The notes under the pieces were generated by a model. The model did not search any database. It saw nothing but the letters and a program-made list of their open reading frames with translations, and was not told where the DNA came from. From a virus, in the IMG/VR virus record IMGVR_UViG_3300025889_000886, positions 1 to 25,035 of that record: a stretch of 25,035 nt of DNA. One strand, given 5' to 3'. The translations under genes were made by a program, and so were the position numbers. The first letter of the stretch is position 1; each line of letters starts with the position of its first letter. This document shows, piece by piece, positions 7,289 through 23,329 of the stretch.

Positions 7289-7584
7289 CTCTCAGCATCA
7301 AAAATCAGGAAATCGCCATTTTCGTCAATTTTCTGATCCTCGTAAGGAACAGCAATTCGACGATACAGTTCCATCTTGGCACATTCCAAAGCACCGATCA
7401 TTTCCTGTATTTGACTGTATGCCATATTATCAGACAAATCTGGATGCAAACCAAGAAAATTTCTTACAAGTGTACAGACAATATAATTCATCTCTGCACC
7501 ATTTCTTGGAGTAAAGTGATTAAGACCATAATCATGAAAATGCTGATCTATTTTTCTACGAAATTCATCACGAATGTACGGCAA
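7279..7584 (-). CDS. Conserved phage protein, probably DUF6899 (101 aa), TTG start
   Basis: The frame extends to 7623 and has an ATG at 7599, but GAGGAG lies seven bases before TTG 7584. Starting there gives MPYIRDEFRRKID, the usual opening of this family as I remember it. Other family features are GAEMNYIVCTLVRNFLG, GALECAKMELYRR and PYEDQKIDENGD near the end. It is soluble and helical. The function is unknown, though the family is common in T4-like phages. The start overlaps the deoxyribosyltransferase-like gene by 17 bases. The last codons are part of a GGCACTTA repeat. Confidence 0.72.
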   Translation of the reverse strand: MPYIRDEFRRKIDQHFHDYGLNHFTPRNGAEMNYIVCTLVRNFLGLHPDLSDNMAYSQIQEMIGALECAKMELYRRIAVPYEDQKIDENGDFLIFDAERGT

Positions 7585-8011
7585 TTTTTTTCTCCTCATA
7601 ATAATATACTTCTGCGTATTCAAGACCCAGTTTCAAATCGTGTGTTTCAACCCACCTAAAATTCTTATAGTGAGTAAAAGCAGCATCTGAAACATGATCG
7701 GCTTTCGTGCTTCGGCCAACACCAATTCCAAAACACGGTTTATCGAAACCATAAGCCATTCCGAGTTCTACGAGAGCACCTCGTTGCTCATCAGCGGGTT
7801 CCGAATAGATAACGAAAAAATCGCAATCATAAACATCCTTAAGACAGATTTCCCATAGACGTGGTTTATCGTTAAGAACAATTGGATGATCTTTACCCAT
7901 TTCCATCCATCGTCCATTGATATTGAAACCCCACACATCGCGTGCTTTGAGAATTTTAGGAGCATGCCAGACTTTACTAGCTACATAAATTTTAGGCTTA
8001 GCAGATTTCAT
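7568..8011 (-). CDS. Nucleoside 2-deoxyribosyltransferase-like protein (147 aa)
   Basis: Starting at ATG 8011 (GGAG six bases upstream), the protein opens with the strand PKIYVAS, has DVYDCDFFVIY (about residues 59-69) and then ADEQRGALVELGMAYGF with Glu82, the layout of the nucleoside 2-deoxyribosyltransferase fold with its catalytic Glu. Such enzymes swap or remove bases on deoxynucleosides; related proteins hydrolyse deoxynucleoside monophosphates. It overlaps the dNMP kinase gene by 14 bases, which supports a role in deoxynucleotide salvage or in handling a modified nucleotide. The substrate cannot be told. The longer frame to 8125 lies inside the kinase gene. Confidence 0.72.
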   Translation of the reverse strand: MKSAKPKIYVASKVWHAPKILKARDVWGFNINGRWMEMGKDHPIVLNDKPRLWEICLKDVYDCDFFVIYSEPADEQRGALVELGMAYGFDKPCFGIGVGRSTKADHVSDAAFTHYKNFRWVETHDLKLGLEYAEVYYYEEKKIAVHS

Positions 8012-8609
8012 AATATGCTCCATTGATATTCTCATGAAATCCATAAAGATCTTCTTTTGTATTGATGATCTGTCGATAACGATCAATTCCTTTGATTGCC
8101 CAATCCCATTCAGACTGATGAACATCTGTTGGTTCTTTTCGTGTAATGATCAGATCTTCTAACCATTTTGGTAACCCAGGTTCACGAACCCACCAAATAT
8201 GTCCACCGTTTTCGAGAATGGCTTCAATCTCATTTTGAAAACGAACATCTGTAATGACTGTTTTTTCATCATATTCACGTTGTTCGAATAGAGATTTCAC
8301 CCAGATATCGTCTCCGAAAACTCCACGCATAGCTTCTGTTCCGATTTTTTGTAACGCTAATCGAGGAGTCAAAATACCATCGTTTAGATCAGGAAATACA
8401 CCTGCCCAGTTTGGATCAGGTTGTTCTCTCCATTTTCTACTTTCAGGAGTATTTCCTTCAAGTGCTTCGCGATCCCAACCAAAGACAACAGATGCAACAT
8501 CTTTAACCGGTGATGCAAATGCACGTTGTTTAAAGTTGTAATTGTCTTTAAGATAATTTCCAGTAGTACCCTTGCCAGAACCGATAAGTCCGACCACTCC
8601 AATAATCAT
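7998..8609 (-). CDS. Deoxynucleoside monophosphate kinase, T4 gp1-like
   Basis: The 203-residue product opens MIIGVVGLIGSGKGTTG, a P-loop (residues 7-15) of the T4 gp1 type. It continues with FASPVKDVASVVFGWDRE (about residues 31-48), GTEAMRGVFGDDIWV and TVITDVRFQNEIEAI, all typical of phage dNMP kinases. It converts dNMPs to dNDPs for phage DNA synthesis. The ATG at 8609 has GGAG nearby and overlaps the stop of a 23-codon ORF as ATGA. The frame upstream to 8651 is not needed. The downstream partner is a deoxyribosyltransferase-like gene. Confidence 0.9.
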   Translation of the reverse strand: MIIGVVGLIGSGKGTTGNYLKDNYNFKQRAFASPVKDVASVVFGWDREALEGNTPESRKWREQPDPNWAGVFPDLNDGILTPRLALQKIGTEAMRGVFGDDIWVKSLFEQREYDEKTVITDVRFQNEIEAILENGGHIWWVREPGLPKWLEDLIITRKEPTDVHQSEWDWAIKGIDRYRQIINTKEDLYGFHENINGAYYEIC

Positions 8610-8677
8610 AATGCTACTCCAAAGATAACACCCATAGTTAGAAGAAAACAAATAATGAATATATTGATCGGTTTCAT
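8606..8677 (-). CDS. Tiny membrane peptide (23 aa)
   Basis: A 23-codon ORF lies exactly between the capsule-transferase-like gene (stop at 8682) and the kinase, and its TGA overlaps the kinase ATG (ATGA). The peptide opens MKPINIFIICFLL and is hydrophobic nearly throughout, forming one membrane helix. No clear Shine-Dalgarno sequence is visible, so it may depend on coupling. Exact packing between two genes is the main evidence that it is used. Confidence 0.45.
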   Translation of the reverse strand: MKPINIFIICFLLTMGVIFGVAL

Positions 8678-8681
8678 ATTA

Positions 8682-9683
8682 TCACAGAACTAAGGATGTC
8701 TTCAACTCTTTTTCTGGTGTTGAGTCAAAATGACGATGGACATAGTGATTGAAAAACTCTTCATAAAGATGAATTTTATTCCGCAATCCATAGGTTGCTC
8801 TTAAAGAACTATAGTTTGGTTCTACTTTAACTGCTACATCTTGATAGTCAGATCTACCAAAGGTGAAAATTGGCTTTCTATGAAGAATGGCTTCCAATCC
8901 GGTTCCGCTGTTGACTGTATAGAGTGCTTGACAGTGTTCAAGAAGAGTATGGATATTACTATCTTCAGTCCAGAAAGAATTTCCGTAACCAAAATTTTTG
9001 ACTATATTTTTCAGAGGAACCATAGCAGCGCGATTGATTGGATGTGCTTTGATAACTAAGTTTAAATTCCACAGTTTTGCAAAGTTCAAAACAGATTTCA
9101 GAGCATCTTCCACAGATACATCACTTTGATTAACAATATTCTGATCATGTGGTAGCTGACACGTGAAAAGAATAAACGGTTCGTTAATCGGAGGTAAAGC
9201 ACTATCCATAGGCTGTATAAATTTACTTTTTCTTTTCACAACAAATTCATTGATGTACTGATGAAAGTAATCTTCAGGAGAAACGGATTTATCAGACAGT
9301 GCAAAAGTATTATCTCCACCCCAACCAGATATATCTATAGAAAACAGATGAGGAAATACTGTTTGCATGTAATATCTAACAGAACTATGAATTTTACTCC
9401 AAGTTCCATAAAAAGATTTTGCACTATGATGAGGAACGTATGTATGATCAGCATTATAGTATGGAATGATATCCTTTGTAATTTGCCAAAGAGGAAGTGT
9501 CACAACGAGAACACGATCTCCTCGATCTTCGTGAAACTTCTTTAGCTTAATAACAAAGTTCTGCCAATGAATACGAATAGGATGATTTGGTGGACCCATT
9601 CTTTCAACAGGCGGAATTGGATTGCCATCATTTTTAAAACTCACATCAAGACGTGGTGCAAGTATTAGAATTTTCTTAGACAT
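8682..9683 (-). CDS. Capsule-polysaccharide transferase-like protein (333 aa)
   Basis: Numbered from ATG 9683, the C-terminal half has LNLVIKAHPINR (about 207-218), TVNSGTGLEAILHRKPIF (256-273) and GRSDY (276-280), the layout of the KpsC/KpsS-type capsule synthesis family (GT-B-like). FSIDISGWGGD (114-124) fits as well. Family members add sugars, often Kdo, during capsule or lipid-linked glycan assembly, using nucleotide sugars in the cytoplasm. Here it may alter host surface glycans or decorate virions. The start overlaps the upstream glycosyltransferase by eight bases and has only a weak SD. Confidence 0.75.
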   Translation of the reverse strand: MSKKILILAPRLDVSFKNDGNPIPPVERMGPPNHPIRIHWQNFVIKLKKFHEDRGDRVLVVTLPLWQITKDIIPYYNADHTYVPHHSAKSFYGTWSKIHSSVRYYMQTVFPHLFSIDISGWGGDNTFALSDKSVSPEDYFHQYINEFVVKRKSKFIQPMDSALPPINEPFILFTCQLPHDQNIVNQSDVSVEDALKSVLNFAKLWNLNLVIKAHPINRAAMVPLKNIVKNFGYGNSFWTEDSNIHTLLEHCQALYTVNSGTGLEAILHRKPIFTFGRSDYQDVAVKVEPNYSSLRATYGLRNKIHLYEEFFNHYVHRHFDSTPEKELKTSLVL

Positions 9684-10449
9684 TGAATGGATCCACTTCT
9701 TCAAATGATTTCATGTAAAAATCTCTTAGACTAATATAGTCTTTGTTTGTGTATTTACGATCGCCTTTACCGGTCCAGATTTTCGAACCTTCTTTGAAAT
9801 CCCAGTCCATAAATCCAGGTGTGTTGAGATTTAGAATTGGCGTATGCTTCTTGTAACTATTCCAATAAACGGCCGTCCGGTAGAGAACACGTTGATCGAA
9901 AAACCATGCTCTTTTTTCTGGAGAATTTAACATAGAATCTCTAAGGTCATTAGCAAAGCATTTTCCCATATTTCCAGAAAGATAAACAACACCGGCTGCG
10001 ATAGTACTTTCTTCTACCATTCCAGGGAATGGTTCTCGAATAAACAATCCAATGTCTTCTTGAAATTCTTTTAAATCAATATGACTGTTTATGATACAGT
10101 CAATGTCGACAATAAGTACATCTTCGATACCATATCCCATGATATCCGCAGCATATTTAAATCGTGCGCACGCGTATACAGTTCTCAATGGATCACCAGT
10201 AAGACTCTCTACATTATCCAACGACCACGAAAAAGAAGCTGTAGCGTCATGATCCATTGCTCGTGCTTTATCTCTGAAAAAAGCAGCTTGTCCGAAGAAA
10301 TACGGCTCCGGGTTTACTACATGCACATGAATATTATTAAAATTGGCAACACAAGAATAGATCAAAGCAGGAGCATGCTCATCGAAATATTTCTGATCAC
10401 ATGCAGCCAACAGTGTCTGTTTTTCTGGTTCGTTTATAAGACTAAACAT
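9676..10449 (-). CDS. GT-A-type glycosyltransferase-like protein (257 aa)
   Basis: The sequence has the layout of a nucleotide-sugar GT-A enzyme: an N-terminal SCVANFNNIHVHVVNPEP strand pair, then ARFKYAADIM and EDVLIVDIDCII with the DID metal-binding motif (Asp115, Asp117). Further on are FIREPFPGMVEESTIAAGVVYLSG, the usual acceptor-loop region, and a C-terminal NLNTPGFMDWDF. It has no membrane segment and acts in the cytoplasm. Donor and acceptor are unknown. It overlaps the metallopeptidase-like gene by eight bases and the capsule-transferase-like gene by eight bases, so the three form one unit. Confidence 0.7.
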   Translation of the reverse strand: MFSLINEPEKQTLLAACDQKYFDEHAPALIYSCVANFNNIHVHVVNPEPYFFGQAAFFRDKARAMDHDATASFSWSLDNVESLTGDPLRTVYACARFKYAADIMGYGIEDVLIVDIDCIINSHIDLKEFQEDIGLFIREPFPGMVEESTIAAGVVYLSGNMGKCFANDLRDSMLNSPEKRAWFFDQRVLYRTAVYWNSYKKHTPILNLNTPGFMDWDFKEGSKIWTGKGDRKYTNKDYISLRDFYMKSFEEVDPFNV

Positions 10450-11056: not shown

Positions 11057-11857
11057 TTATTCTCCTCGAGTGACATCAAAGCCATTTGCAGCCGTGTAAT
11101 CTTTCTGACTGCGCTTTTGATAATTCACAAATGTTTCTGGAATATAATCTTCTGGATTCATTCTTCCAGCAAGAATAGCTTCTTGATAGTAATCATCAAA
11201 GAGTTTTACCACATCATCACGCCGGTGCTCACGAATGGGGCCATCATACCAGTGTTCTTGGTTGTTTTGCTCTAAACGAAATAATGCATATTTCAAATGG
11301 GGCTGTGTGCTCATGTCTGTGTAGTGAAGAATTTTAATCTCATCAAGTGGATCATTTTCTCCATCATAGTTATTCCAACGGCGATCAAACTGTTGAATTA
11401 GCTGAGGTCTGCCTGCGAAATAACTGCAGTATCGTGAATGTGATTCTGCGATATTGCGCATACGTGCTACAGGCATGAGATGATCACGAGCTCGTTCACA
11501 ATTCCATTTGGATACACAGAAACGCCATCCGCCTTTAGATTGCAGAACAGCATTTTCTTCCCATGGGGCATTCCAGAGTTCGGCGAGATCGGCTTGGATA
11601 ATCATATCGCTATCCATGTAAATAGCCTGACCTTCAAAGCCACAATACTCTGGAATGCCCCAACGAAATCCACTGAATGGAGTTGACCATTGAGAACTAT
11701 TCCAACCAGACCAATATCCATCCTCTGAAATTTTCATCCAGACAATATCAATAGGTAAAGACGATTTGGTTCGAGCTGTATACTCAAGAACCATTTGAGA
11801 CTCGGCATCTTCTCCATTTGGTGCACAGCCGACAAAGAGTTTAATCGTATCTGTCAT
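11057..11857 (-). CDS. GT8-like glycosyltransferase (266 aa)
   Basis: The N-terminal IKLFVGCAPNGEDAESQMVLEYTARTK and the AIYMDSDMIIQADLAELWN segment with the DSD metal site (Asp82, Asp84) are typical of GT8-like enzymes of the lipopolysaccharide galactosyl/glucosyl type. ILHYTDMSTQPH (about residues 174-185) matches the usual late His motif. It would transfer a hexose from a UDP-sugar in the cytoplasm; the acceptor may be LPS core or a phage protein. GGAG lies ten bases before the ATG. The gene overlaps its upstream neighbour by 17 bases, and the peptidase gene follows within four bases. Confidence 0.75.
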   Translation of the reverse strand: MTDTIKLFVGCAPNGEDAESQMVLEYTARTKSSLPIDIVWMKISEDGYWSGWNSSQWSTPFSGFRWGIPEYCGFEGQAIYMDSDMIIQADLAELWNAPWEENAVLQSKGGWRFCVSKWNCERARDHLMPVARMRNIAESHSRYCSYFAGRPQLIQQFDRRWNNYDGENDPLDEIKILHYTDMSTQPHLKYALFRLEQNNQEHWYDGPIREHRRDDVVKLFDDYYQEAILAGRMNPEDYIPETFVNYQKRSQKDYTAANGFDVTRGE

Positions 11858-13498: not shown

Positions 13499-14461
13499 TT
13501 AAAGGAATTTTAATCCTAGAGGGTAGTAGGTCCGCATATACCAATCGATACCATGACGAAGACCATCGTTCAAATCATACGTTGGTTTCCAGTCTGGAAG
13601 GAGTTTCTGAAATCTATAACTGTTGAGAAGCTTTCTCTTCATTCCAACAGGTTTGTCTTTATTATAGACAAATTCACAATCCACATCCATAATATCTCTG
13701 ATGGCATTAGCAATCTCTGTAACTGTATATTCTTTTTGAGTACCAACATTCAAAAGATGATATGGAATAGTTGGAGCTTTAGCCATAAGATCAAATGATG
13801 CGCGGGCGAGATCATCGACATGCATAAGCTCACGCTTTTGAGTTCCGTCTCCCCAGATTTCAACTTTTGTGCGGCCACCTTTCTTTTTGGCTTCAATCAT
13901 TTTATAGATAAGAGCTCCAACCACGTGGCTGTTTGTTCCGTTGATTTTATCAAGAGGACCATAGAGATTTGGAGGAATGATAGTCACAAATTTATTCTTT
14001 GTGAATTTGGATCCAAACCAACTGGCTTTATGACCTAGCAATTTACCTTCAGCATATCCAATATTTGTTTCCTCAGGAGACAAACCGGAGTACAGATCCA
14101 TCTCATCCATGATAGCAAGATCTGGAGGATAGACACAGCTTGAACTGTAATAAAAAACATTGACATCTTCGAAGTTTTTATTGATTGCATCTATGAGGTT
14201 CAATGCAATCATACCGTTTTCCATGAAATAGTCATAATGACGATTCATATTATCAGCAATTCCACCAACCAACCCTGCAGTGATGAAAAACTGATTTTCA
14301 TTCGGTCTTTCATTTCTAAGTCTCATCAACAAACGATATGTATCTTTACGATCTGTGAAATCTGCATCATCTCTGTCAAGTGTAATAGCAAATTCTGATC
14401 TGCGTCGAGCCTCATGCATTAAAGCTTTACCGACCATTCCTGCGCCTAGAATTACAGCCAT
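13499..14461 (-). CDS. GDP-L-fucose synthase / ColC-like epimerase-reductase
   Basis: This is an extended short-chain dehydrogenase of 320 residues, the usual length of GDP-fucose synthase. It has a nucleotide-binding GAGMVG (6-11), SSSCVYP (106-112), GYAEGK with Tyr136 and Lys140, and PPNLYGP followed by NSHVVGAL with His179. Ser107, Cys109, Tyr136, Lys140 and His179 coincide with catalytic positions I recall for E. coli GDP-fucose synthase: Ser-Tyr-Lys for reduction, Cys and His as epimerisation acid/base. It would convert a GDP-4-keto-6-deoxymannose-type substrate to the L-sugar using NADPH. The neighbouring ColD-like gene makes a GDP-colitose route equally possible. It overlaps that gene as TAATG and closes the sugar operon. 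Confidence 0.87.
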   Translation of the reverse strand: MAVILGAGMVGKALMHEARRRSEFAITLDRDDADFTDRKDTYRLLMRLRNERPNENQFFITAGLVGGIADNMNRHYDYFMENGMIALNLIDAINKNFEDVNVFYYSSSCVYPPDLAIMDEMDLYSGLSPEETNIGYAEGKLLGHKASWFGSKFTKNKFVTIIPPNLYGPLDKINGTNSHVVGALIYKMIEAKKKGGRTKVEIWGDGTQKRELMHVDDLARASFDLMAKAPTIPYHLLNVGTQKEYTVTEIANAIRDIMDVDCEFVYNKDKPVGMKRKLLNSYRFQKLLPDWKPTYDLNDGLRHGIDWYMRTYYPLGLKFL

Positions 14462-15669
14462 TAAGTTATACTCCGCATTATATCAATAAAGTGATCTATT
14501 TCTGTACTAAGATCGCGGCTGTCATTTCCAATAAAGAATCCATTATCATGAATACCATCTGCGACAGTCATTTCTCCATAAACACGATGTTCTATATTCT
14601 TCATGACTGGTGTTCTAAGAAAATTACCAGCAACAATAGGACGAACAGCAATACCAGCCGCTTTCAGTTGATCGGCAATTTTATCTCGATCCAATCCTTT
14701 TCTTAGAATGAAACCAAAGCCAAATGATGATGTCAATCCATCGTCAAACTGTGTTTGAAGTCTTCCCCACGTAACTTTTGTTTTTTCCATTTCGTTTCTG
14801 AGATAGAAAAGATTTTCACGACGTTTGTTTATGAATTTGCCGGCTTTATTGAGTTGCTCATATCCAATTGCACCAGAAATTTCAGTAGGACGAACATTAT
14901 ATCCTAATGCCACAAAATTGAATGGAGCATAGAAGTCGTTCTTTTTCTTGATACTAAGTGCACTGACATTATCTAAATGTCTATCCCATCCGTGAGATCG
15001 AATAGATTTAAGATAATCTCTAACAGAAGAATTATCTGTAACAACCATTCCTCCTTCCATCGTTTGTAAATGATGACTAAAGAATGTACTATATGTAGTC
15101 ATGAGTCCAATTGAACCAGGTTCTTCAAATTTTTCATCCACGATTTCATCATCAGAATTTTTGTATTGTCTCAGAACTTTACATCCAAATCCCTCACAAT
15201 TATCAATGAGCAAAAAAAGATCATTTGCTCTACAAAATCTATCTACTTCTTTTAGGTTTGAAGAATTGCCAAGGAGTGTTACAAACAGAATAGCTTTTGT
15301 TTTATTCGACAAAACTGCTTCAAGATAAGAAGCACGCATAGTAAAAGATTCACTGTCTACATCTACAAACACTGGAATAAGACCATATTGTACGAGAGGA
15401 AAATACGTAGTTGACCAACTGACAGCAGGAACAATAACTTCATCGCCGGGTTGAAGTAATCCCATTTGTACCATTGTGGAAATCATAATGAGATTAGCAG
15501 ATGATCCACTATTCGTCATGACACCATAATCTGCTCCTACATATGTCGCAAATGCGTCCTCATATTTCTCTACTTTTTCACCCATAGTGTATTGACCACT
15601 GAGAAGTACATCAATACCAGCTTTTAGTTCTTCTTTTCCCCATGTGTCTGTTGCAAGTTCATATTTCAT
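14461..15669 (-). CDS. DegT-family enzyme with His at the PLP-lysine site, ColD-like 3-dehydratase
   Basis: The 402-residue product is a DegT/DnrJ/EryC1/StrS fold-type I enzyme: TNSGSSANL (52-60), PAVSWSTT (81-88), LIDNCEGFG with Asp156, and TFFSHHLQTMEGG (195-207). Where aminotransferases have the Schiff-base lysine, this sequence has His199. That replacement is known from 3-dehydratases such as ColD, which use PMP to make GDP-4-keto-3,6-dideoxymannose. I infer sugar 3-dehydration rather than transamination. The ATG at 15669 has GAGG nine bases upstream; the longer frame to 15735 lies inside the upstream gene. It overlaps both neighbours, so the operon structure is tight. The nucleotide on the substrate (GDP or CDP) cannot be seen. 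Confidence 0.83.
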   Translation of the reverse strand: MKYELATDTWGKEELKAGIDVLLSGQYTMGEKVEKYEDAFATYVGADYGVMTNSGSSANLIMISTMVQMGLLQPGDEVIVPAVSWSTTYFPLVQYGLIPVFVDVDSESFTMRASYLEAVLSNKTKAILFVTLLGNSSNLKEVDRFCRANDLFLLIDNCEGFGCKVLRQYKNSDDEIVDEKFEEPGSIGLMTTYSTFFSHHLQTMEGGMVVTDNSSVRDYLKSIRSHGWDRHLDNVSALSIKKKNDFYAPFNFVALGYNVRPTEISGAIGYEQLNKAGKFINKRRENLFYLRNEMEKTKVTWGRLQTQFDDGLTSSFGFGFILRKGLDRDKIADQLKAAGIAVRPIVAGNFLRTPVMKNIEHRVYGEMTVADGIHDNGFFIGNDSRDLSTEIDHFIDIMRSIT

Positions 15670-16366
15670 TTTCATTGACCTCGATTGTGGTAATATTAAA
15701 ACTATCAGAAAGATATCGTAGAGAAATAATATCACTTTCTGAAACGACAGGATTATCTTTGTTTATATAAATCTTTGTCCGATTCCGCCCTAAAACTGCA
15801 GCAGAAATAGTAAACATAGAAAAACCACCAATAACCAAATCTGAATACATACAAGAATACCAATCTGCAACTGGAGAATTAGACTTTAGAAGATTATTTT
15901 TGTACATTGGATAATATAGTTCTTCAATTCTCTGATGATCGTTTCCAATAAACAAAGCATCATCTTGAAAGTCATGAAAATAGATGCTCCAAAGTTGCCT
16001 ATAAAAACTATCTGGAAGACATTTACGATCGCCATTGCGATAATGAAACAACAAATGACTGGATCGAAAAAGAAAATCTCTTTTCATTCGCCACAATGCT
16101 TCTTTCTTTACATCCGAAAAATATTTTATGAGAATCTCAAGATTTTCTTTCTTAAAACACCCAACCTTTTTTGTATCATCTACAAACTGTACTGGAACCC
16201 CGAGATCAAAGATTTGACTGAGATAGTCAACCTTAGAATGATCTGCTGTGTCTTTTGTATTGATATGAATTTCTTTCAATTCATGTCCAGTCATTTGAAG
16301 CTGAGCAAGACCAACAAGATATTCCATCACCTGTGTGCCAAGAGAACCTCTTACATTAAGAATCAT
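15659..16366 (-). CDS. GT11-like (fucosyltransferase-type) glycosyltransferase (235 aa)
   Basis: The N-terminal VRGSLGTQVMEYLVGLAQLQ recalls the GGLGNQMFQYA motif of alpha-1,2-fucosyltransferases (GT11). LFHYRNGD has the HxRxxD pattern (His108, Arg110, Asp113) that binds GDP-fucose. DLVIGGFSMFTISAAVLG (about 176-193) resembles the late 'SxFSxWaAyL' motif. At 235 residues it is shorter than most GT11 enzymes, so it is divergent or minimal. It would transfer the L-sugar made by the two downstream genes. GGAG lies six bases before the ATG, which overlaps the methyltransferase stop as ATGA. The acceptor is unknown. Confidence 0.62.
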   Translation of the reverse strand: MILNVRGSLGTQVMEYLVGLAQLQMTGHELKEIHINTKDTADHSKVDYLSQIFDLGVPVQFVDDTKKVGCFKKENLEILIKYFSDVKKEALWRMKRDFLFRSSHLLFHYRNGDRKCLPDSFYRQLWSIYFHDFQDDALFIGNDHQRIEELYYPMYKNNLLKSNSPVADWYSCMYSDLVIGGFSMFTISAAVLGRNRTKIYINKDNPVVSESDIISLRYLSDSFNITTIEVNENEI

Positions 16367-16842
16367 TTCTTACTCCACAATGTGAGAACACCACGCGGGT
16401 GCTCTTCAAGTTCTTCAATCTCACAACCCAACTCCGCGGCCCAATATTCATAAAATTCAGGAAAATATCCAGTTGAATAGATATAAGGTTCTTGATGACG
16501 GTCACATTTCATTGGGCACGTAATAATAAACTTACCTTTATAGTCTGTTATTCTAACAAGCTCTTTAAGTAAGTCAACCGGATTTGGTATGTGTTCTAAA
16601 ACTTCAGTCAGTAGAATATTTTCCATACTTCTATCATTAAAAGGCAAAGGTTGTGTTAGATCATGCTTTATATCTACATCATATTCGCCAAAATCAAGAC
16701 TTATATATTCTAAACCATGAGCTTCACAAATAGACTTATAAGGCATCGGTCCAGCACCAACATCAAGAATAGCCTCTTTAGAACTGAGCTTTTGAATTTG
16801 GTTTGGAATCCATTCTTGTCGAAATGATTTATAATCTTGCAT
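16363..16842 (-). CDS. SAM-dependent methyltransferase, class I (159 aa)
   Basis: The glycine-rich motif I, AILDVGAGPMPY (near residue 25), is followed by an acidic strand end, YISLDFG, and the post-motif LTEVLEHIPNPVDLLKEL, the usual layout of small class I (Methyltransf_11-like) enzymes. It would move a methyl group from SAM to a small molecule or sugar; position in a sugar operon favours sugar O-methylation. The start is taken as ATG 16842, two bases after the upstream stop (TGA-TA-ATG). It has no membrane segment. The missing C-terminal cap compared with longer family members means that substrate recognition cannot be judged. Confidence 0.82.
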   Translation of the reverse strand: MQDYKSFRQEWIPNQIQKLSSKEAILDVGAGPMPYKSICEAHGLEYISLDFGEYDVDIKHDLTQPLPFNDRSMENILLTEVLEHIPNPVDLLKELVRITDYKGKFIITCPMKCDRHQEPYIYSTGYFPEFYEYWAAELGCEIEELEEHPRGVLTLWSKK

Positions 16843-16844
16843 TA

Positions 16845-17906
16845 TCAAAAGGTCTGCATAGGATAAGGAATACGAATTGAGCCATGAATAGCATCACGAT
16901 ATGTTGTTTCTGTTACGTCACCTCGACGATGAAAACCGAAGACATTTGCAATGATAAGAGTGTTTGCTTTGACTTTCATTTTCTGTGGCGACAATCCAAG
17001 TTTTCCAATTTCACTTTCATTGATTCTTAAACTTCCTTCATGATGACCGGCACCACGCCAGTCTTCATAGTTTTTATCAAAAGCATTTAATGACTGTTTA
17101 TAATGCCAATCAATAATCTCTGGACTTTCCATAAGATCAACGGAACATGGAACATACTCGAATGCACCTTCTTCTACATCATTTGGAAAATACCAGAACT
17201 TTACAGCAGGGAAGAAAATATCAGAATGGAAAACCTTTTGAATATCGTTGTCGTCTGGTTTGTTTTCAATTCTCTGTAAAAAGATGTTTTCATAAAACAA
17301 TTTTTCTGCTCCATCTGCTCGTTGCAGACCGGTAGCATTACAGACATACAACTTAATTAGATCATAGATCATAAGAAGATGCCCATCGGGTGTGGGCCGA
17401 TTGAAAGGTTGCTTATTGACTGAAAATTTGTCAACTCTTGAAATTGAGAGATCTGCAACTTGCGTTAGATACTTTTCTAGAACATTATTGATTTGAACAT
17501 ATCCAAGAGTATGATACTTATTAGAGAACACACTTGTATGTGATCGGATAATTGAAGCATAATAAGAAAAGATCATACGAAAAACATGAAGACCGTTTTC
17601 AAGTTTTTCTTTCGTATAGACAACACCGTCTATGTTTTTATAGTTTGAGGTGAGTCTAACATATTCTTCTTCATCTTCTGTATAATTTAAAAGAAAAGAA
17701 ATATTTTGAAGATTGCATTCACGTTGATATGGTGTAGAATTTGGATCTAGAAATTGCAGTTCGTTTTTCTTAATAGAAAAAAGCTGATCATCATTAAGAT
17801 CTAATCCGTTCTGACATAAAAACCGGGTGAACAGAGGAATTCGCATACAACCGAGCCTGTGAAATATGCTCTGGTTTTCTGTGCCACTTTCCGTTGATAT
17901 TGTCAT
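16845..17906 (-). CDS. PhyH-like Fe(II)/2-oxoglutarate dioxygenase (up to 353 aa)
   Basis: The C-terminal half has KVFHSDIFFPAVKFWYF with the HxD iron pair (His227, Asp229), EGAFEYVPCS, and ANTLIIANVFGFHRRGD with the distal His326 and a basic 2-oxoglutarate-binding residue after it. This is the phytanoyl-CoA dioxygenase fold, used for hydroxylations including natural-product and sugar tailoring. The N-terminal 200 residues are not recognised. The frame from ATG 17906 overlaps the GIY-YIG gene by 113 bases; ATG 17846 (residue 21) reduces the overlap to 53 bases and is an alternative start. It is the first gene of the sugar operon, so it may hydroxylate the sugar or its carrier. Confidence 0.75.
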   Translation of the reverse strand: MTISTESGTENQSIFHRLGCMRIPLFTRFLCQNGLDLNDDQLFSIKKNELQFLDPNSTPYQRECNLQNISFLLNYTEDEEEYVRLTSNYKNIDGVVYTKEKLENGLHVFRMIFSYYASIIRSHTSVFSNKYHTLGYVQINNVLEKYLTQVADLSISRVDKFSVNKQPFNRPTPDGHLLMIYDLIKLYVCNATGLQRADGAEKLFYENIFLQRIENKPDDNDIQKVFHSDIFFPAVKFWYFPNDVEEGAFEYVPCSVDLMESPEIIDWHYKQSLNAFDKNYEDWRGAGHHEGSLRINESEIGKLGLSPQKMKVKANTLIIANVFGFHRRGDVTETTYRDAIHGSIRIPYPMQTF

Positions 17907-18258
17907 TATAATAATTGTCCTCTTCTAATACATTATGAAAGAACTGCTGACGAACCTCTTCGTAGTTGCAGTCTCCTCTTGTCTTATGGAGAGAAATAAC
18001 TTCTCTCTTGAAATTTTCTTTACCGTACTGCTCAACGTCTTCTAAGAGAGTCTTAGATGAGCCATAATAGTCTCTCCAATCGCTCTCTTTACGCTGTCTT
18101 CTTTTTCTGCCTTTGACTTTTCTTATGGAGAAGAAATATTTGCGACCAATGTATTTTTTACCAGTCAATGTATTTGTTATAATATAAACCATTCCCTCAT
18201 ATTTGTCAATGTCTTTTAATTCTTCTCCACGGAAAATCCATGGATTATTCTTCTTCAT
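17794..18258 (-). CDS. SegE-like GIY-YIG endonuclease-like protein (154 aa)
   Basis: GMVYIITN and KKYIGRKYF form the two halves of the GIY-YIG motif. WRDYYGSSKTLLEDVEQYGKENFKREV and the CNYEEVRQQF helix with its Glu are typical of the Seg-like subgroup in T4-type phages. T4 Seg proteins are freestanding homing endonucleases that cut and copy themselves into related genomes. Many members in cyanophages have no shown activity. The ATG at 18258 overlaps the zinc-ribbon stop by 14 bases. The C-terminal 20 residues run into the dioxygenase gene, which suggests that the boundary was made by insertion or recombination. Confidence 0.82.
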   Translation of the reverse strand: MKKNNPWIFRGEELKDIDKYEGMVYIITNTLTGKKYIGRKYFFSIRKVKGRKRRQRKESDWRDYYGSSKTLLEDVEQYGKENFKREVISLHKTRGDCNYEEVRQQFFHNVLEEDNYYNDNINGKWHRKPEHISQARLYANSSVHPVFMSERIRS

Positions 18259-18400
18259 CAAAGAAAATATCGTCCTCCGCCTCTGATAATTCAAAACCAC
18301 AGATAGGACAGAATTTTACTTCCAAATCGTCATTTTCTAATTCAATGGTTGATTCTTCAATACACTTTGGACAGATGATTGTATCGCTTACTGCGCCCAT
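18245..18400 (-). CDS. Small zinc-ribbon protein (51 aa)
   Basis: A 51-codon ORF starts at ATG 18400 inside the last codons of nrdB, with GGAGG four bases upstream, and ends at 18245. It has two CxxC pairs, CPKC and CPIC, 18 residues apart, which should bind one zinc ion. It ends in an acidic tail (SEAEDDIFFDEEE). Such ribbons often mediate protein or nucleic-acid contacts. It joins nrdB to the GIY-YIG gene by overlaps of 13 and 14 bases. The strong SD and the paired cysteines make it a convincing gene. Confidence 0.75.
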   Translation of the reverse strand: MGAVSDTIICPKCIEESTIELENDDLEVKFCPICGFELSEAEDDIFFDEEE

Positions 18401-19356
18401 ACTTCCTCCCAGCTTCCTTTGAGTGCTCCCTTAGCATAATCTGTTGCTCGATTCTCAAAGAAATTAGTATGAATCGGAGCATTGATAAGAGTTTCCACCC
18501 AAGGTAGTGGATTTCTTTTGACTTTGAAGATACCTTTGAGACCCATACTAATCAGACGGCGATCTGCGATATATCGAATGTATTTTTTGACCTCATCATC
18601 TCTTAAGCCTTGAATGGTACCCATCTGAAAAGCCAAATCAATGAATTGATCTTCAAGTTCAACCATCTTTTCACAGATGGAATAGATCTGTTCTTTTGTT
18701 TTGTCATTCCATTCACCGCGGTTTTCTTCAACAAGATATCGAAATAGCTTGATCATTGCTTCTGTATGCATTGTTTCATCAACAATAGACCAGGTAATAA
18801 TCTGCCCCATACCTTTCATTTTTCCATGACGTGGAAAATTCAGAAGCATAATAAATGAGCTGAATAGAGCAAGACCTTCTGTAAATGCACTGATGGCTGC
18901 GATCTTAATTAAAGTGGATGCATTGTTTTCAATCTTCTCCATAAAGTATTCATGCTTCTGACGCATAGCATCATACTCATTGAATTCGTTGTAGGTTGAC
19001 TCAGGCATCCCTAATGTTTCAATGAGGTGACTATAGGCTGCAACGTGTAAAGCCTCACGTGCACCAAATCCAAGAAGCATCATACGAATTTCGGGCTGCT
19101 GAAAATATGGGAGATAATTCTTAACATACCCACCAGCAACATCAAGATCTGACTGTGTAAAGAAACGAAAAATCTGTGTAAGGAAGTATTTTTCCTCCAC
19201 AGATAATTTTGTCTTCCAATCTTTGATATCTTCCAGCATTGGAACTTCCGTATGCAACCAGTGAGATTGCTCATGCTTGAGCCAGATGTCGTAGAATTCT
19301 GGATATTGAAACGGTTTGAAATATTCGCGTGGTTCTGTAAGCTTAAGCTTCTTCAT
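18388..19356 (-). CDS. nrdB: Class I ribonucleotide reductase, small subunit
   Basis: At 322 residues it is slightly shorter than cellular NrdB. The di-iron ligands appear in order: Asp in FTQSDLD (70-72), Glu101 and His104 in REALHVAAYSH, Glu in FTEGLALF, and Glu and His in VDETMHTEAM. Tyr108 sits four residues after His104, the spacing of the radical tyrosine in E. coli NrdB, so a tyrosyl radical cofactor is expected. It works with NrdA, three genes upstream, to reduce ribonucleotides. The start overlaps the 65-residue zinc-ribbon gene by 14 bases. The last codons overlap the next zinc-ribbon gene. Confidence 0.95.
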   Translation of the reverse strand: MKKLKLTEPREYFKPFQYPEFYDIWLKHEQSHWLHTEVPMLEDIKDWKTKLSVEEKYFLTQIFRFFTQSDLDVAGGYVKNYLPYFQQPEIRMMLLGFGAREALHVAAYSHLIETLGMPESTYNEFNEYDAMRQKHEYFMEKIENNASTLIKIAAISAFTEGLALFSSFIMLLNFPRHGKMKGMGQIITWSIVDETMHTEAMIKLFRYLVEENRGEWNDKTKEQIYSICEKMVELEDQFIDLAFQMGTIQGLRDDEVKKYIRYIADRRLISMGLKGIFKVKRNPLPWVETLINAPIHTNFFENRATDYAKGALKGSWEEVWAQ

Positions 19357-19540
19357 TGATTGTTGCTCTATCGTTAGGTAACACTTCTGTTAGCAACTTC
19401 TTATCACCATACTGTTTGGCAACTTCTTCGTTGTAATAAGGAGATGGTTTCATTGGGCAACCGCCAACACATTGTGTCCAATCATCGCCACTGTTTTTGC
19501 CGCATTTTGGACAAATTAGCTTATTTTCTGCTTCAAACAT
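19343..19540 (-). CDS. Small cysteine-rich zinc-ribbon-like protein (65 aa)
   Basis: ATG 19540 has GAGG seven bases upstream; the frame above it is not needed. The product carries CPKC and CVGGC (about residues 11-29), a likely zinc knuckle, then MKPSPYYNEEVAKQYGD. The function is unknown. Its position between nrdA and nrdB and its two Cys pairs could suit redox or subunit contact work with the reductase, but this is inference. Confidence 0.65.
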   Translation of the reverse strand: MFEAENKLICPKCGKNSGDDWTQCVGGCPMKPSPYYNEEVAKQYGDKKLLTEVLPNDRATINEEA

Positions 19541-19713
19541 TCTTCTACCTCTAAGTTTATTGTACCACATACTGGATATTGCCCAGGCTTAATTCTCGAC
19601 GTAACGATCATATCAGGTTCTGTGGATGTGTCGTTACCATTTATATATCCTCTTTTCCAAGCATACTCTGGATTAAATCTTGCTCTGCATCCTTTACAGT
19701 TAATCAGTGACAT
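19516..19713 (-). CDS. Small cysteine-containing protein (65 aa)
   Basis: The ATG at 19713 follows AGGAG by 11 bases. The product opens MSLINCKGCRARFNPEYAW, with a CxxC pair, and has two more Cys (in QYPVCG and EVEECLK) that could complete a zinc site. It overlaps the next small gene by 25 bases. I recognise no family. Together with its neighbour it forms a pair of Cys-rich proteins inside the nrd operon. Confidence 0.6.
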   Translation of the reverse strand: MSLINCKGCRARFNPEYAWKRGYINGNDTSTEPDMIVTSRIKPGQYPVCGTINLEVEECLKQKIS

Positions 19714-19758
19714 TTATAAAAGGTCTCCTATCTGCCCATCAACAATATCATCAATTTT

Positions 19759-21549
19759 TTATCCTTCACAAGCTAAACAGGTTTCTCCATCAGCAACCTG
19801 AGTAAGATCAATCTCTTGAATAATCTCACGTTCGATTCGTTTTGCAATTTTATCTGCTTTCCCAATCTTATCAGAACGACAATAATATAAAGTCTTCAAT
19901 CCAGATTTCCAAGCTAGGAAATGAACAGCATGAAGATACTTAATGTTAGTGTCTGGTCTAAAAAATAAATTAACAGACTGTGCTTGATCAATGAATTGCT
20001 GTCTATCAGCAGCATGTTCAATCAACCATCTTTGATCAATTTCCATGGCAGTCTTGAAGATATCTTTTTCTAAGTCAGAAAGAAACTTCAAATGCTGTAC
20101 AGATCCATCGTTTGAAATGATAGATGACCATATTTCATCATAATCTAATTTGGTATTTTCTGTACACTTGTTTTTAATCAGTTCGTCAAGATATTTGTTC
20201 TTTGCGAAATGAGAACCGGAAAGTGTATCCTGTCTGTAGGCGTTTGCTCTAAACGGTTCAATAGAAGGTGATGTATTTCCCATGATAATTGAGCTTGAAG
20301 CGTTCGGTGCAATTGCCATAAGATGAGAAAATCTTTTTCCGGTTCCGACTGCATCTGGAGCTTCTCCTCTCTTTTCAGCAAGAACTTCGTTAGCTTCATC
20401 GAGGTTGCTTCTGATGTGTTTGAAGATTCTCATATTGGCAGATTTAGCCATAGCGCTCTCAAAAGGAATTCCTTTCTTTTGAAGATATGCATGAAAACCA
20501 AGAGCACCGACACCAATTGATCTCTCACGCATGGCAGAAAACTTAGCACGACTAATAGTATCTGGTGCAAGATTGATAAAGACAGTCAGTACATTATCAA
20601 GCATTTCAGCTACATCAAGAATAAACTGAGGATTCTTAGACCAAGCATCATAGTGTTCAAGGTTCAAAGAAGACAGACAGCAAACAGCTGTTCGATCTTT
20701 TGATGTTGGAAGAATGATTTCTGAACACAAATTCGATTGATTAATTGTCAATCCTTGATCTTTAAGAAACTGTGGCAACCCGCGCCGGGATGTATCAATG
20801 AAATGCAAATATGGTTCTCCGGTCATCATTCGCAATTCGATGATCTTTTGCCAAAGACTACGAGCACTAAGTGTCTCTATTATTTCTTTAGAGTGCGGAT
20901 CAATCAATGGCCAACTGTCATCTGCGTTTGGATCTTTCATACAATTCTCAATCAGCTCCATAAAGTCATCTGTGATATTGACTCCATGATGAAGATTAAG
21001 ACAGCGAAGGTTCTGATCACCAGTCGGTTTACGCATTTCAAGAAACTGAATAATGTCTGGATGGCTAATATCTAAATAAACAGCGTATGATCCACGGCGA
21101 GTTTTACCCTGTCGAAAAGCAAGAGAACTTGCATCATACATTTTGAGATGAGTTGAAACACCAGTAGATTTATCGTCACTTGAACGAATACCAAAACCAA
21201 TACCAACACCGCCGCCGAGCATTGACAACCAATTTGTTTCACTAAGTGTATCAACCAATCCCTCTGCTGTATCATCAATATAGTTCAGATAACAGGAAAT
21301 AGGCAAGCCTTTTTTAGCACGGCCATATGATAGAATTGGAGTACTAAAAGACAACCAATGCTTTGAAGAATAATCATACAGCCTTTGTGCATGATCATCA
21401 TCTGTAGCAAATGTCTTTGATACAAATGCAAATCTTTCTTGAGGCGTCTGTTCGTCTTCTTTCATGTACGATTCTTTAAGACGCGTGATACCAGCCTCTC
21501 CAATCAATGCATCTCTGTTTGGCTCAAGTTTGATTCCTAGATATTCCAT
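19759..21549 (-). CDS. nrdA: Class I ribonucleotide reductase, large subunit (no ATP cone)
   Basis: At 596 residues it is clearly shorter than cellular NrdA (about 760) because the N-terminal ATP-cone domain is absent, so dATP inhibition is probably lost, as in other phage reductases. Active-site residues are present: Cys86 in PISCYL, the NLCSE motif with Asn273, Cys275 and Glu277, Cys290-291 in the AVCCLSSLNL segment, and the C-terminal redox pair CLAC (591-594). Substrate- and effector-loop segments GGGVGIGFG and GKTRRGSYAVYLD are intact. AAGGAG lies five bases before the ATG, which abuts the ThyX stop. It makes dNDPs for phage DNA together with NrdB. Confidence 0.95.
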   Translation of the reverse strand: MEYLGIKLEPNRDALIGEAGITRLKESYMKEDEQTPQERFAFVSKTFATDDDHAQRLYDYSSKHWLSFSTPILSYGRAKKGLPISCYLNYIDDTAEGLVDTLSETNWLSMLGGGVGIGFGIRSSDDKSTGVSTHLKMYDASSLAFRQGKTRRGSYAVYLDISHPDIIQFLEMRKPTGDQNLRCLNLHHGVNITDDFMELIENCMKDPNADDSWPLIDPHSKEIIETLSARSLWQKIIELRMMTGEPYLHFIDTSRRGLPQFLKDQGLTINQSNLCSEIILPTSKDRTAVCCLSSLNLEHYDAWSKNPQFILDVAEMLDNVLTVFINLAPDTISRAKFSAMRERSIGVGALGFHAYLQKKGIPFESAMAKSANMRIFKHIRSNLDEANEVLAEKRGEAPDAVGTGKRFSHLMAIAPNASSSIIMGNTSPSIEPFRANAYRQDTLSGSHFAKNKYLDELIKNKCTENTKLDYDEIWSSIISNDGSVQHLKFLSDLEKDIFKTAMEIDQRWLIEHAADRQQFIDQAQSVNLFFRPDTNIKYLHAVHFLAWKSGLKTLYYCRSDKIGKADKIAKRIEREIIQEIDLTQVADGETCLACEG

Positions 21550-22227
21550 TTAGTCTCCTTGTACGCAATAATTGATATATGGAAAGATCTTTCCAAGTTC
21601 ATCCGCAGTCATCAGTGCAATTTCTCGATGTTCTTTCTGAGTACCGTTTCCACTACGTAACTGAATGTAATGAATCCAACTACGAAGAGAACCTTTCATA
21701 TACATCTTACTCATGGTCATACCTTCAGGCAACACAGCCCGAGCTTGTTCTTTAGCAATACCATGCTCAATAGCCCATGCATATTTTCTCTTTGCAGACT
21801 CCACATGTTCTTCTTGAAGACGTTCCCATTCAGCAATAAGCTCATCATCACCATCTTCAAGTTCAATACTATTCTGACGATTTTTCTTGTCTTGCAAACG
21901 AGCTTCTCGAACCAAGAAATCCAACGACTTAGTTGGATCAGCATAACGTTGTGAGAACTCCTGAAAAGAAAAAGATCGGTGACGAAGAATCTGTCGACCG
22001 ATATCTCTTGTGGTAATAATTTCTAACGTTGCATCAACCATCTCAAAGACTGACCAATGCTGATTTTTGGCACAATAAGAGACAAGCTTTTCTGCCGTTT
22101 CGTTATTATGCTGATTAGAAGGATTTGAGACGCGAGCTGTATAAGCAATCATCTCAAGTGTATTCATTCCAGATAATTCATCACATGCTGGCTGTGTATA
22201 ACTTACCAGTTTCACGCTTGGTTGCAT
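21550..22227 (-). CDS. thyX: Flavin-dependent thymidylate synthase ThyX
   Basis: The ThyX signature RHR-x7-S is present as RHRSFSFQEFSQR (Arg82 to Ser92), in a protein of 225 residues, typical for the family. It makes dTMP from dUMP using FAD, NADPH and methylenetetrahydrofolate, without depending on a separate dihydrofolate reductase. MSKMYMKGSLRSWIHYIQLR near residue 170 is the second active-site helix. The start is buried 47 bases inside the primase gene with a poor SD, so translation is coupled. It is followed directly by nrdA, forming a nucleotide-supply unit. Confidence 0.95.
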   Translation of the reverse strand: MQPSVKLVSYTQPACDELSGMNTLEMIAYTARVSNPSNQHNNETAEKLVSYCAKNQHWSVFEMVDATLEIITTRDIGRQILRHRSFSFQEFSQRYADPTKSLDFLVREARLQDKKNRQNSIELEDGDDELIAEWERLQEEHVESAKRKYAWAIEHGIAKEQARAVLPEGMTMSKMYMKGSLRSWIHYIQLRSGNGTQKEHREIALMTADELGKIFPYINYCVQGD

Positions 22228-23257
22228 ATTTTTTCCACTTCATAAAGTTGAGATAAAATTCTGGCCCATGATATGCATGTTTATTTATCAGAGTCAGAAT
22301 ATCTTTTACAGACATACCAGACATAATCATTTCATTAATGTCTTTTCCATCTGTCTTTGGCCACACAACGATTGAAAATCCCATATCCGCAGCTTTCTCC
22401 ATTGTGTATGCGATATGCTTATTGCGTGGCTGATTGTCAAAAATAAGTACTGTGTTTTTACGATTTTTTACAATTGGATATACAGCTAATAGATTTGAAT
22501 TACCAACTGCAAGAGAATTTGGGAGAAAGAGAGAGTCAATAACACCCTCGACCACATAGATACGCTCGGCACGATTAACTCTTGGAATGTTGTAAACAAA
22601 AGGATAATTGTCGAGAAGACGAAAGGCTGTATATCTCATGTTTGTTTTACCACTGATATCTCTACCAGTAAACCCGATCAATCGACCACGGCGTGTATAT
22701 GCTGGAAAGATAATACGAGGTCCATCATCATGAAGTCTATCTGGTGTAACTCTCTCTTTTAGAGATGAATGTACTTCAAGAAGTTTCTGTGAATTGTCAC
22801 AATAAAACAATTCACTTAGAAATTCTTTTGGAATCTTTCTTTCACGCATGTATACGCGTGCAGGATGATCTTCTTCAAGAAAAGAAAGTTTTGGAAACAG
22901 TGCATCTAATCCAGAAGATCGAACAATATTCTTTTTCTTTGAGACAACCTTGACATCTTCTCTTCCTGAAGATTTGAATTTCTCAAGTCTATAAGAATTA
23001 TACAATGCTCCATTTGCGTCTTTAAGAAAATTCTCGAACGACATACCAGCGTTGCAATTATGGCAACGATAGTTTAGTTTTCCCTTCTTCACATAAAAGT
23101 ATCCACGCATCTTGCGTTTGTTCTTTTGTGAATCACCACAAATTGGACATCTTAATGAAGCAAGAAATGGATTTCGTTGCTTAATTTTATGCACTGGAAA
23201 ATTTGTAGTGAGAAGAAGTTGTGCGTATTTAATATCAATGTGATTCATAATAGACAT
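22181..23257 (-). CDS. DNA primase, T4 gp61-like
   Basis: An N-terminal zinc finger (CPIC at 37-40, CHNC at 65-68) is followed by a TOPRIM region with IYVVEGVIDSLFLPN and VLIFDNQPRNK. The C-terminal part includes WPKTDGKDINEMI. The order and the 358-residue length match T4 gp61, which makes RNA primers with the gp41 helicase. The first ATG (23257) touches the -10 box of the promoter at 23258-23285; ATG 23248 (residue 4) could be used from that transcript. It heads the operon primase-thyX-nrdA-nrdB. Confidence 0.9.
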   Translation of the reverse strand: MSIMNHIDIKYAQLLLTTNFPVHKIKQRNPFLASLRCPICGDSQKNKRKMRGYFYVKKGKLNYRCHNCNAGMSFENFLKDANGALYNSYRLEKFKSSGREDVKVVSKKKNIVRSSGLDALFPKLSFLEEDHPARVYMRERKIPKEFLSELFYCDNSQKLLEVHSSLKERVTPDRLHDDGPRIIFPAYTRRGRLIGFTGRDISGKTNMRYTAFRLLDNYPFVYNIPRVNRAERIYVVEGVIDSLFLPNSLAVGNSNLLAVYPIVKNRKNTVLIFDNQPRNKHIAYTMEKAADMGFSIVVWPKTDGKDINEMIMSGMSVKDILTLINKHAYHGPEFYLNFMKWKKYATKRETGKLYTASM

Positions 23258-23285
23258 ATTATACTAATTACACTATAGTGTAAAC
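23258..23285 (-). promoter_or_regulatory. Candidate primase promoter with embedded palindrome
   Basis: TATAAT (23263-23258, minus strand) directly precedes the primase ATG. The -35 region is weak (GTTTAC at 16 bases or TTTACA at 15). Between them lies a perfect 16-bp palindrome, TTACACTATAGTGTAA (23268-23283), a strong candidate operator. A transcript starting here would have almost no leader. Confidence 0.45.
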
Positions 23286-23303
23286 CCAGAAAACATTCTC
23301 TGG

Positions 23304-23329
23304 AAAAAAAGTTGACAACGGTTTCGTTG
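23304..23329 (-). terminator. Possible weak terminator after the lysis genes
   Basis: The minus-strand transcript can form CAACG-AAAC-CGTTG (23329-23316), followed five bases later by seven T residues (23310-23304). The stem is short and the gap before the T run is unusual, so termination may be partial. It lies after the holin-like gene and before primase. Confidence 0.35.

Follow-up and report, generated by a model that had tools for sequence, protein, structure and literature searches.

A candidate GDP-L-colitose-type cassette within a modular deoxysugar island of a T4-like aquatic phage

Cyanophages with lipopolysaccharide (LPS)-type gene clusters and GDP-fucose genes are already a known kind of phage. 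The clusters of P-SSM2, S-SCSM1, ACG-2014f and S-CAM7 bring epimerases and transferases together in T4-like phages (PMC7824862, PMC9602691, PMC7029224), with that of S-SCSM1 holding GDP-mannose 4,6-dehydratase (GMD), GDP-fucose synthase, fucosyltransferases and many 2-oxoglutarate oxygenases (PMC9602691). In pelagimyophages and cyanophages alike, these clusters have been read as serving surface modification (PMC7824862, PMC7029224). Here we describe a sugar cassette of a T4-like phage in the virus record IMGVR_UViG_3300025889_000886, a genome fragment that was analysed over its whole length of 25,035 bases (the window). Whereas the cyanophage clusters are described as fucose or generic LPS genes, this cassette encodes proteins resembling ColD and ColC, the enzymes of GDP-L-colitose synthesis. 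ACG-2014f and S-CAM7 appear to hold genes for GMD, an Fcl-like protein and a histidine-type 3-dehydratase in a row, annotated as an aminotransferase and epimerases, but their 3-dehydratases reach only 29-30% identity and are placed outside the ColD branch in our tree.

The bacterial GDP-L-colitose pathway is encoded by GMD, ColD and ColC genes of O-antigen loci. The window resembles these loci in its adjacent ColD- and ColC-like genes, which have the same active-site signature, and related phages have GMD as well; it differs in being phage-borne, in the dioxygenase/transferase pair that accompanies the two enzymes and in the lack of a GMD gene within the window. Serotype-converting phages (Shigella SfIV and SfI, E. 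coli Kapi1) likewise alter the host O-antigen and hence the phage receptor. These phages are temperate, and what they attach is for the most part glucose or an acetyl group drawn from a common donor, whereas the window is predicted to encode the synthesis of a new nucleotide sugar. The open-access papers searched, most subscription papers lying outside that search, yielded no phage colitose-type route, no dioxygenase/transferase frame of this kind and no sugar swap at one genome position.

The cassette consists of five genes with intact reading frames, all on the minus strand between 13499 and 17906, in the order given in a preliminary description of this DNA:

16845..17906, minus strand: PhyH-like Fe(II)/2-oxoglutarate dioxygenase (HxD...H site and fold)
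16363..16842, minus strand: S-adenosylmethionine methyltransferase (open reading frame listed to TTG 16848; PF08241/PF13489 above cut-off)
15659..16366, minus strand: fucosyltransferase-like GT-B glycosyltransferase, short and divergent, 'GT11-like' (motif and predicted fold)
14461..15675, minus strand: ColD-like protein, predicted GDP-4-keto-6-deoxymannose 3-dehydratase (longer open reading frame to GTG 15735; score, His201, no [2Fe-2S] cysteines)
13499..14461, minus strand: ColC-like reductase/epimerase, an extended short-chain dehydrogenase/reductase of the GDP-fucose-synthase superfamily (solved matches and catalytic residues)

The DegT protein of the cassette is ColD-like, as the preliminary description had proposed. 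Compared with solved DegT-fold enzymes, it scores 308 bits against ColD (2gms) and 173 against E1, while no other enzyme exceeds about 101; its identity to ColD is 44%. Its His201 occupies the site of the aminotransferase lysine and matches the residue (ColD His188) mutated in the structures 3b8x and 2r0t; it is histidine in all 169 aligned homologues. The [2Fe-2S] cysteines that mark E1-type proteins are absent; they are present in L007 and in the second DegT protein of L004. In a FastTree phylogeny of 168 proteins the window protein groups with the phage proteins of L156 and L333, on the side of all 80 bacterial ColD-like proteins and apart from the E1-like and cyanophage versions, although long-branch joins in this tree are uncertain. 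The possibility that the protein is an ordinary lysine aminotransferase or the CDP-sugar enzyme E1 is ruled out by its active-site residues, score and tree position. We therefore assign it to the ColD type, which uses pyridoxamine 5'-phosphate (PMP) and a histidine base and requires no external reductase (review PMC8987622), and predict that it acts as a 3-dehydratase on GDP-4-keto-6-deoxymannose. A plain-sequence scan for homologues gave only L002, and the others were recovered using an alignment as the query. The 642-kb record of the uncultured phage LR756502 (L004) has two 3-dehydratase-like genes, at 7935-9104 and 15493-16794, one of the ColD type without Fe-S cysteines beside an Fcl-like gene and the other of the E1 type with the cysteines.

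The next protein had been described as a GDP-fucose-synthase/ColC-like enzyme, and its best solved matches are indeed GDP-L-fucose synthases (8du0, 1bsv) rather than non-GDP epimerases. Residues C109, Y136, K140 and H179, the established catalytic residues of GDP-fucose synthase, are invariant across nine phage relatives. The protein scores 186.7 bits against the Fcl equivalog NF047922 and does not reach its cut-off of 500; one bacterial ColC encoded beside ColD scores 293 bits and other phage ColC-like proteins 281-358. In a tree the window reductase lies opposite all 25 Fcl rows (support 95/90), a weak placement because its end branch is so long, and the ColC proteins do not form a single clade. 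A ColC-like gene is the neighbour of ColD in 35 viral loci and in 65 of the 80 bacterial loci.

The enzyme preceding ColD in the pathway, GMD, was said to be missing from the window, and PF16363 does pick out only the ColC-like gene there. Fuller sets occur in related phages. Transferase, GMD, ColD, ColC and dioxygenase genes form one row in L118 (a 107-kb record) and L116, while L156 and L292 have the order transferase, dioxygenase, GMD, ColD, ColC, followed by GT8-like, second transferase and Capsule_synth genes. L288 holds GMD, ColD, ColC, transferase and dioxygenase genes plus all three further transferases. The GMD proteins of L118, L156 and L288 exceed the TIGR01472 cut-off. In G091, a 154-kb relative whose NrdB is 79% identical, a GMD-ColD-ColC run lies at about 8-11 kb of the record, and a separate group behind nrdB/segE, at about 90-98 kb, comprises the GT8-like, second transferase, Capsule_synth, transferase and dioxygenase genes. 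Since G091 keeps its GMD-ColD-ColC run apart from the nrdB/segE island, the GMD of the window phage may well lie elsewhere in its genome. L333 (NrdB also 79%) has the order of the window, nrdB-segE-(methyltransferase)-transferase-ColD-ColC and on to GT8-like, transferase and Capsule_synth genes, without a dioxygenase and, in its 29 kb, without GMD.

Another arrangement, in which a GMD-like gene (about 46-54% identical to cyanophage GMD) comes directly after ColD and a ColC-like gene is lacking, is seen in 46 viral loci, including many of L095-L158, and in SAR11 genomes (L169, L170, L171, L175, L177, L179 and L187). Some ColD phages also have a shortened UDP-glucose/GDP-mannose dehydrogenase-type gene beside the transferase, at 6848-7657 in L147 by a Pfam match, and at 8291-9106 in L293 and 2030-2845 in L287 by likeness seen by eye.

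For the transferase and the dioxygenase, folds were predicted, because the window proteins matched no sequence profile; profile searches of the Protein Data Bank gave only chance matches for both. The transferase has no Pfam match at E 1 and no family match in the profile libraries. Five of its relatives share an RGxLGxQ-type start and the conserved HxRxxDR motif, and its model (predicted local distance difference test, pLDDT, 78) aligns with NodZ, POFUT1/2, FUT8 and AtFUT1 at Z 8.3-9.9, which suggests an enzyme using a GDP-fucose-type donor. The earlier label 'GT11-like' draws on the HxRxxD motif and on a predicted GT-B fold that suits GT9 heptosyltransferases too, and does not hold as a family assignment. 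The dioxygenase itself matches neither PF05721 nor any other profile, while three of its six relatives match PF05721, the best at 5e-4. Its HxD...H metal site (H227, D229, H326) is invariant in the six relatives, and its model, with mean pLDDT 63 and ordered from about residue 100, resembles 2-oxoglutarate enzymes including KanJ, EvdO2, AviO1 and SnoN at Z of about 13. Several of these act on sugars in natural-product pathways. The predicted structure fits a sugar-tailoring 2-oxoglutarate enzyme. The methyltransferase had also been suggested to tailor the sugar, a role that is unsupported by conservation because the gene does not accompany the cassette in other phages.

Comparison with relatives shows the window to be one version of a modular phage GDP-deoxysugar island, since these relatives hold either colitose-type or perosamine-type sets. 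The closest of them, L282 and L283, have an NrdB 86% identical to that of the window. Behind segE they encode a dioxygenase, a short unclassified protein, a transferase and a formyltransferase-like protein. At the same place they also encode a short DegT protein in which the aminotransferase lysine is present (SFQIKKRVPIG), as a single frame in L283 and split between two open reading frames in L282, and a GMD-like protein that scores 349 bits, below the GMD cut-off of 415. This set resembles the established route to GDP-perosamine and its N-formyl derivative. In L289 the DegT/GMD-like set is joined by a hexapeptide acyltransferase, and L306 and L308 resemble it. GDP-4-keto-6-deoxymannose is presumed to be the branch point common to all of these sets.

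The constant part of the island is the dioxygenase/transferase pair. The transferase occurs in 37 of the 54 dioxygenase loci and in none of 79 nrdB loci of similar length, and neither family was found near any of the 80 bacterial ColD genes. A tight link between the dioxygenase and colitose was considered and rejected, ColD being absent from most dioxygenase loci. At one edge of the island, L279, compared over window positions 16782-23306, is practically identical in DNA to the window through nrdA, nrdB and segE, until a divergence of about 4% starts within the dioxygenase gene (~17000-17500) and runs to the contig end. Such a step is as expected for a recombining island, and its position within the dioxygenase gene is a possible recombination edge. 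It is a real possibility, if somewhat short of probable, that T4-like aquatic phages keep a constant dioxygenase/transferase pair and exchange colitose or N-formyl/N-acyl perosamine sets beside it, each lineage imposing its own serotype during lytic infection.

From these gene identities, catalytic residues, relatives' sets, pairing and swap, all read from sequence, we infer the product, acceptor and benefit of the island. In an infected aquatic bacterium, GDP-mannose would be converted to GDP-4-keto-6-deoxymannose by a GMD of the host or one encoded elsewhere in the phage genome. Phage ColD, encoded in the island downstream of nrdB/segE, would then remove the C3 hydroxyl using PMP and its catalytic histidine, and phage ColC would invert C5 and reduce C4 to give GDP-L-colitose. 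The fucosyltransferase-like GT-B enzyme and three further transferases would pass the sugar to an acceptor, for which LPS or some other glycan on the surface of the infected cell is the most likely candidate, and the dioxygenase, as the steady partner of the transferase, would oxidise the transferred sugar or its acceptor. The likely gain is loss of the receptor to rival or sibling phages. We lean slightly towards this account as a whole, in which a T4-like phage makes GDP-L-colitose and transfers it to the surface glycan of the infected cell.

Several observations weigh against it. No GMD is found in the 25-kb window, and the transferase model fits GT9 heptosyltransferases equally (Z up to 10.8). 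Most dioxygenase/transferase loci are without ColD, which means that the pair is not specific to colitose. The ColC-like protein has diverged strongly, with an end branch of 4.1 and a shortened glycine-rich motif, and its exact reaction could therefore differ. This last point, together with the long-branch tree position and the many viral and SAR11 loci that pair ColD with a GMD-like gene and no ColC, leaves some room for the 3-dehydratase and reductase making another GDP-3,6-dideoxyhexose (for instance without C5 inversion), or for the reductase being a GDP-fucose synthase beside ColD. We consider this unlikely, given that the epimerase residues C109 and H179 are retained, that ColD and ColC-like genes are so often adjacent in viral and bacterial loci and that the reductase scores far under the Fcl cut-off. 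As regards the target, the leading alternative is that the same chemistry decorates the virion, on tail fibre or capsid, instead of the host surface, and to this a similarly minor chance attaches: tail-fibre genes are near the annotated sugar clusters of cyanophages, and any glycan could serve as substrate for the Capsule_synth-like enzyme and several transferases, but the window has no tail-fibre gene and published readings prefer the host surface.

T4 DNA carries glucose as an anti-restriction modification, and the window phage is T4-like and has a dNMP-kinase-like gene (by eye) at 7998-8651. Transfer of the sugar to phage DNA for the same purpose is nevertheless disfavoured and very improbable, as no base-hydroxymethylating enzyme was recognised in the window, the transferases are like glycan-building families and the gene set agrees with that of bacterial surface-sugar loci. 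Bacterial genomes commonly contain GMD/ColC/ColD sets, which might point to host O-antigen DNA misclassed as viral or to a transient passenger. This we regard as scarcely credible when several phage contigs, independent of one another, have the sugar genes behind nrdB/segE, the window ColD groups with phage proteins, the dioxygenase and transferase families are missing from the surroundings of the 80 bacterial ColD genes and the reading frames are intact. Host-surface colitose thus remains our preferred reading, and it gives the vague 'LPS genes' of aquatic phages a named, testable sugar. If true, lytic phages import routes to rare dideoxy sugars and hold alternative versions at one genome position, much as bacterial O-antigen loci do; the cell surface may then change within a single infection, with bearing on competition among phages and on how rare-sugar genes spread. 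As the isolated cyanophages ACG-2014f and S-CAM7 appear to hold a related GMD/reductase/3-dehydratase set, testing in cultured phages is feasible.

The sugar island extends past the cassette to about 8682, spanning approximately 8.7-17.9 kb and adding three glycosyltransferase-type genes. These and the gene at its upstream edge are as follows:

17794..18300, minus strand: segE-like GIY-YIG gene, upstream edge of the island (PF19835)
11057..11857, minus strand: GT8-like glycosyltransferase (weak PF01501 match)
9676..10449, minus strand: probable glycosyltransferase with no family match (position of homologues)
8682..9704, minus strand: Capsule_synth (KpsS-like) glycosyltransferase, downstream end of the island (PF05159 at 2.8e-19)

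In L009, L282, L283, L297 and L333 the segE-like gene separates nrdB from the sugar genes. Homologues of the GT8-like gene, 51-70% identical, lie behind the sugar genes in L156, L282, L327 and L333, those of the 9676..10449 gene are flanked by the GT8-like and Capsule_synth genes in L156, L282, L306, L327 and L333, and the Capsule_synth gene has the same relative position in L147, L156, L282, L288 and L333. Misassembly is ruled out because L002, a contig from a separate metagenome, has the genes for the dioxygenase, the methyltransferase and the transferase, together with the beginning of the ColD-like gene, at 99.8% DNA identity to the window.

The five cassette genes had been described as all overlapping. 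This is so for three junctions, from the methyltransferase to the ColC-like side, with overlaps of 4, ~17 and 1 bases. The methyltransferase most likely starts at ATG 16842, and from there it is clear of the dioxygenase gene. For the ColD-like gene the probable start is ATG 15675 rather than GTG 15735, because in the longer reading ColD homology begins only at residue 23. The dioxygenase gene and the segE-like gene upstream share 113 bases, with a similar overlap in L009, L282 and L283. T4-type late promoters (TATAAATA) number 3 in the window against 1.75 expected, and none lies at the cassette.

The window phage is a T4-like virus of aquatic bacteria. Its markers are a primase, ThyX, NrdA, NrdB, RNase H-like genes and the GIY-YIG gene, and the nearest isolates by the gp61-like primase are marine cyanophages at about 37% identity. 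The segE-like gene bears the label 'NAD synthetase' in PHROG family 447, as do cyanophage records, and this label looks wrong because Pfam assigns the protein to the GIY-YIG nuclease family. A protein of unknown function at 3363-3965 matches phrog_30607 and is conserved at 43-45% identity in L118 and L297, near their gp32-like and RNase H-like genes, and the protein at 7568-8125 resembles, by eye, the nucleoside 2-deoxyribosyltransferase type.

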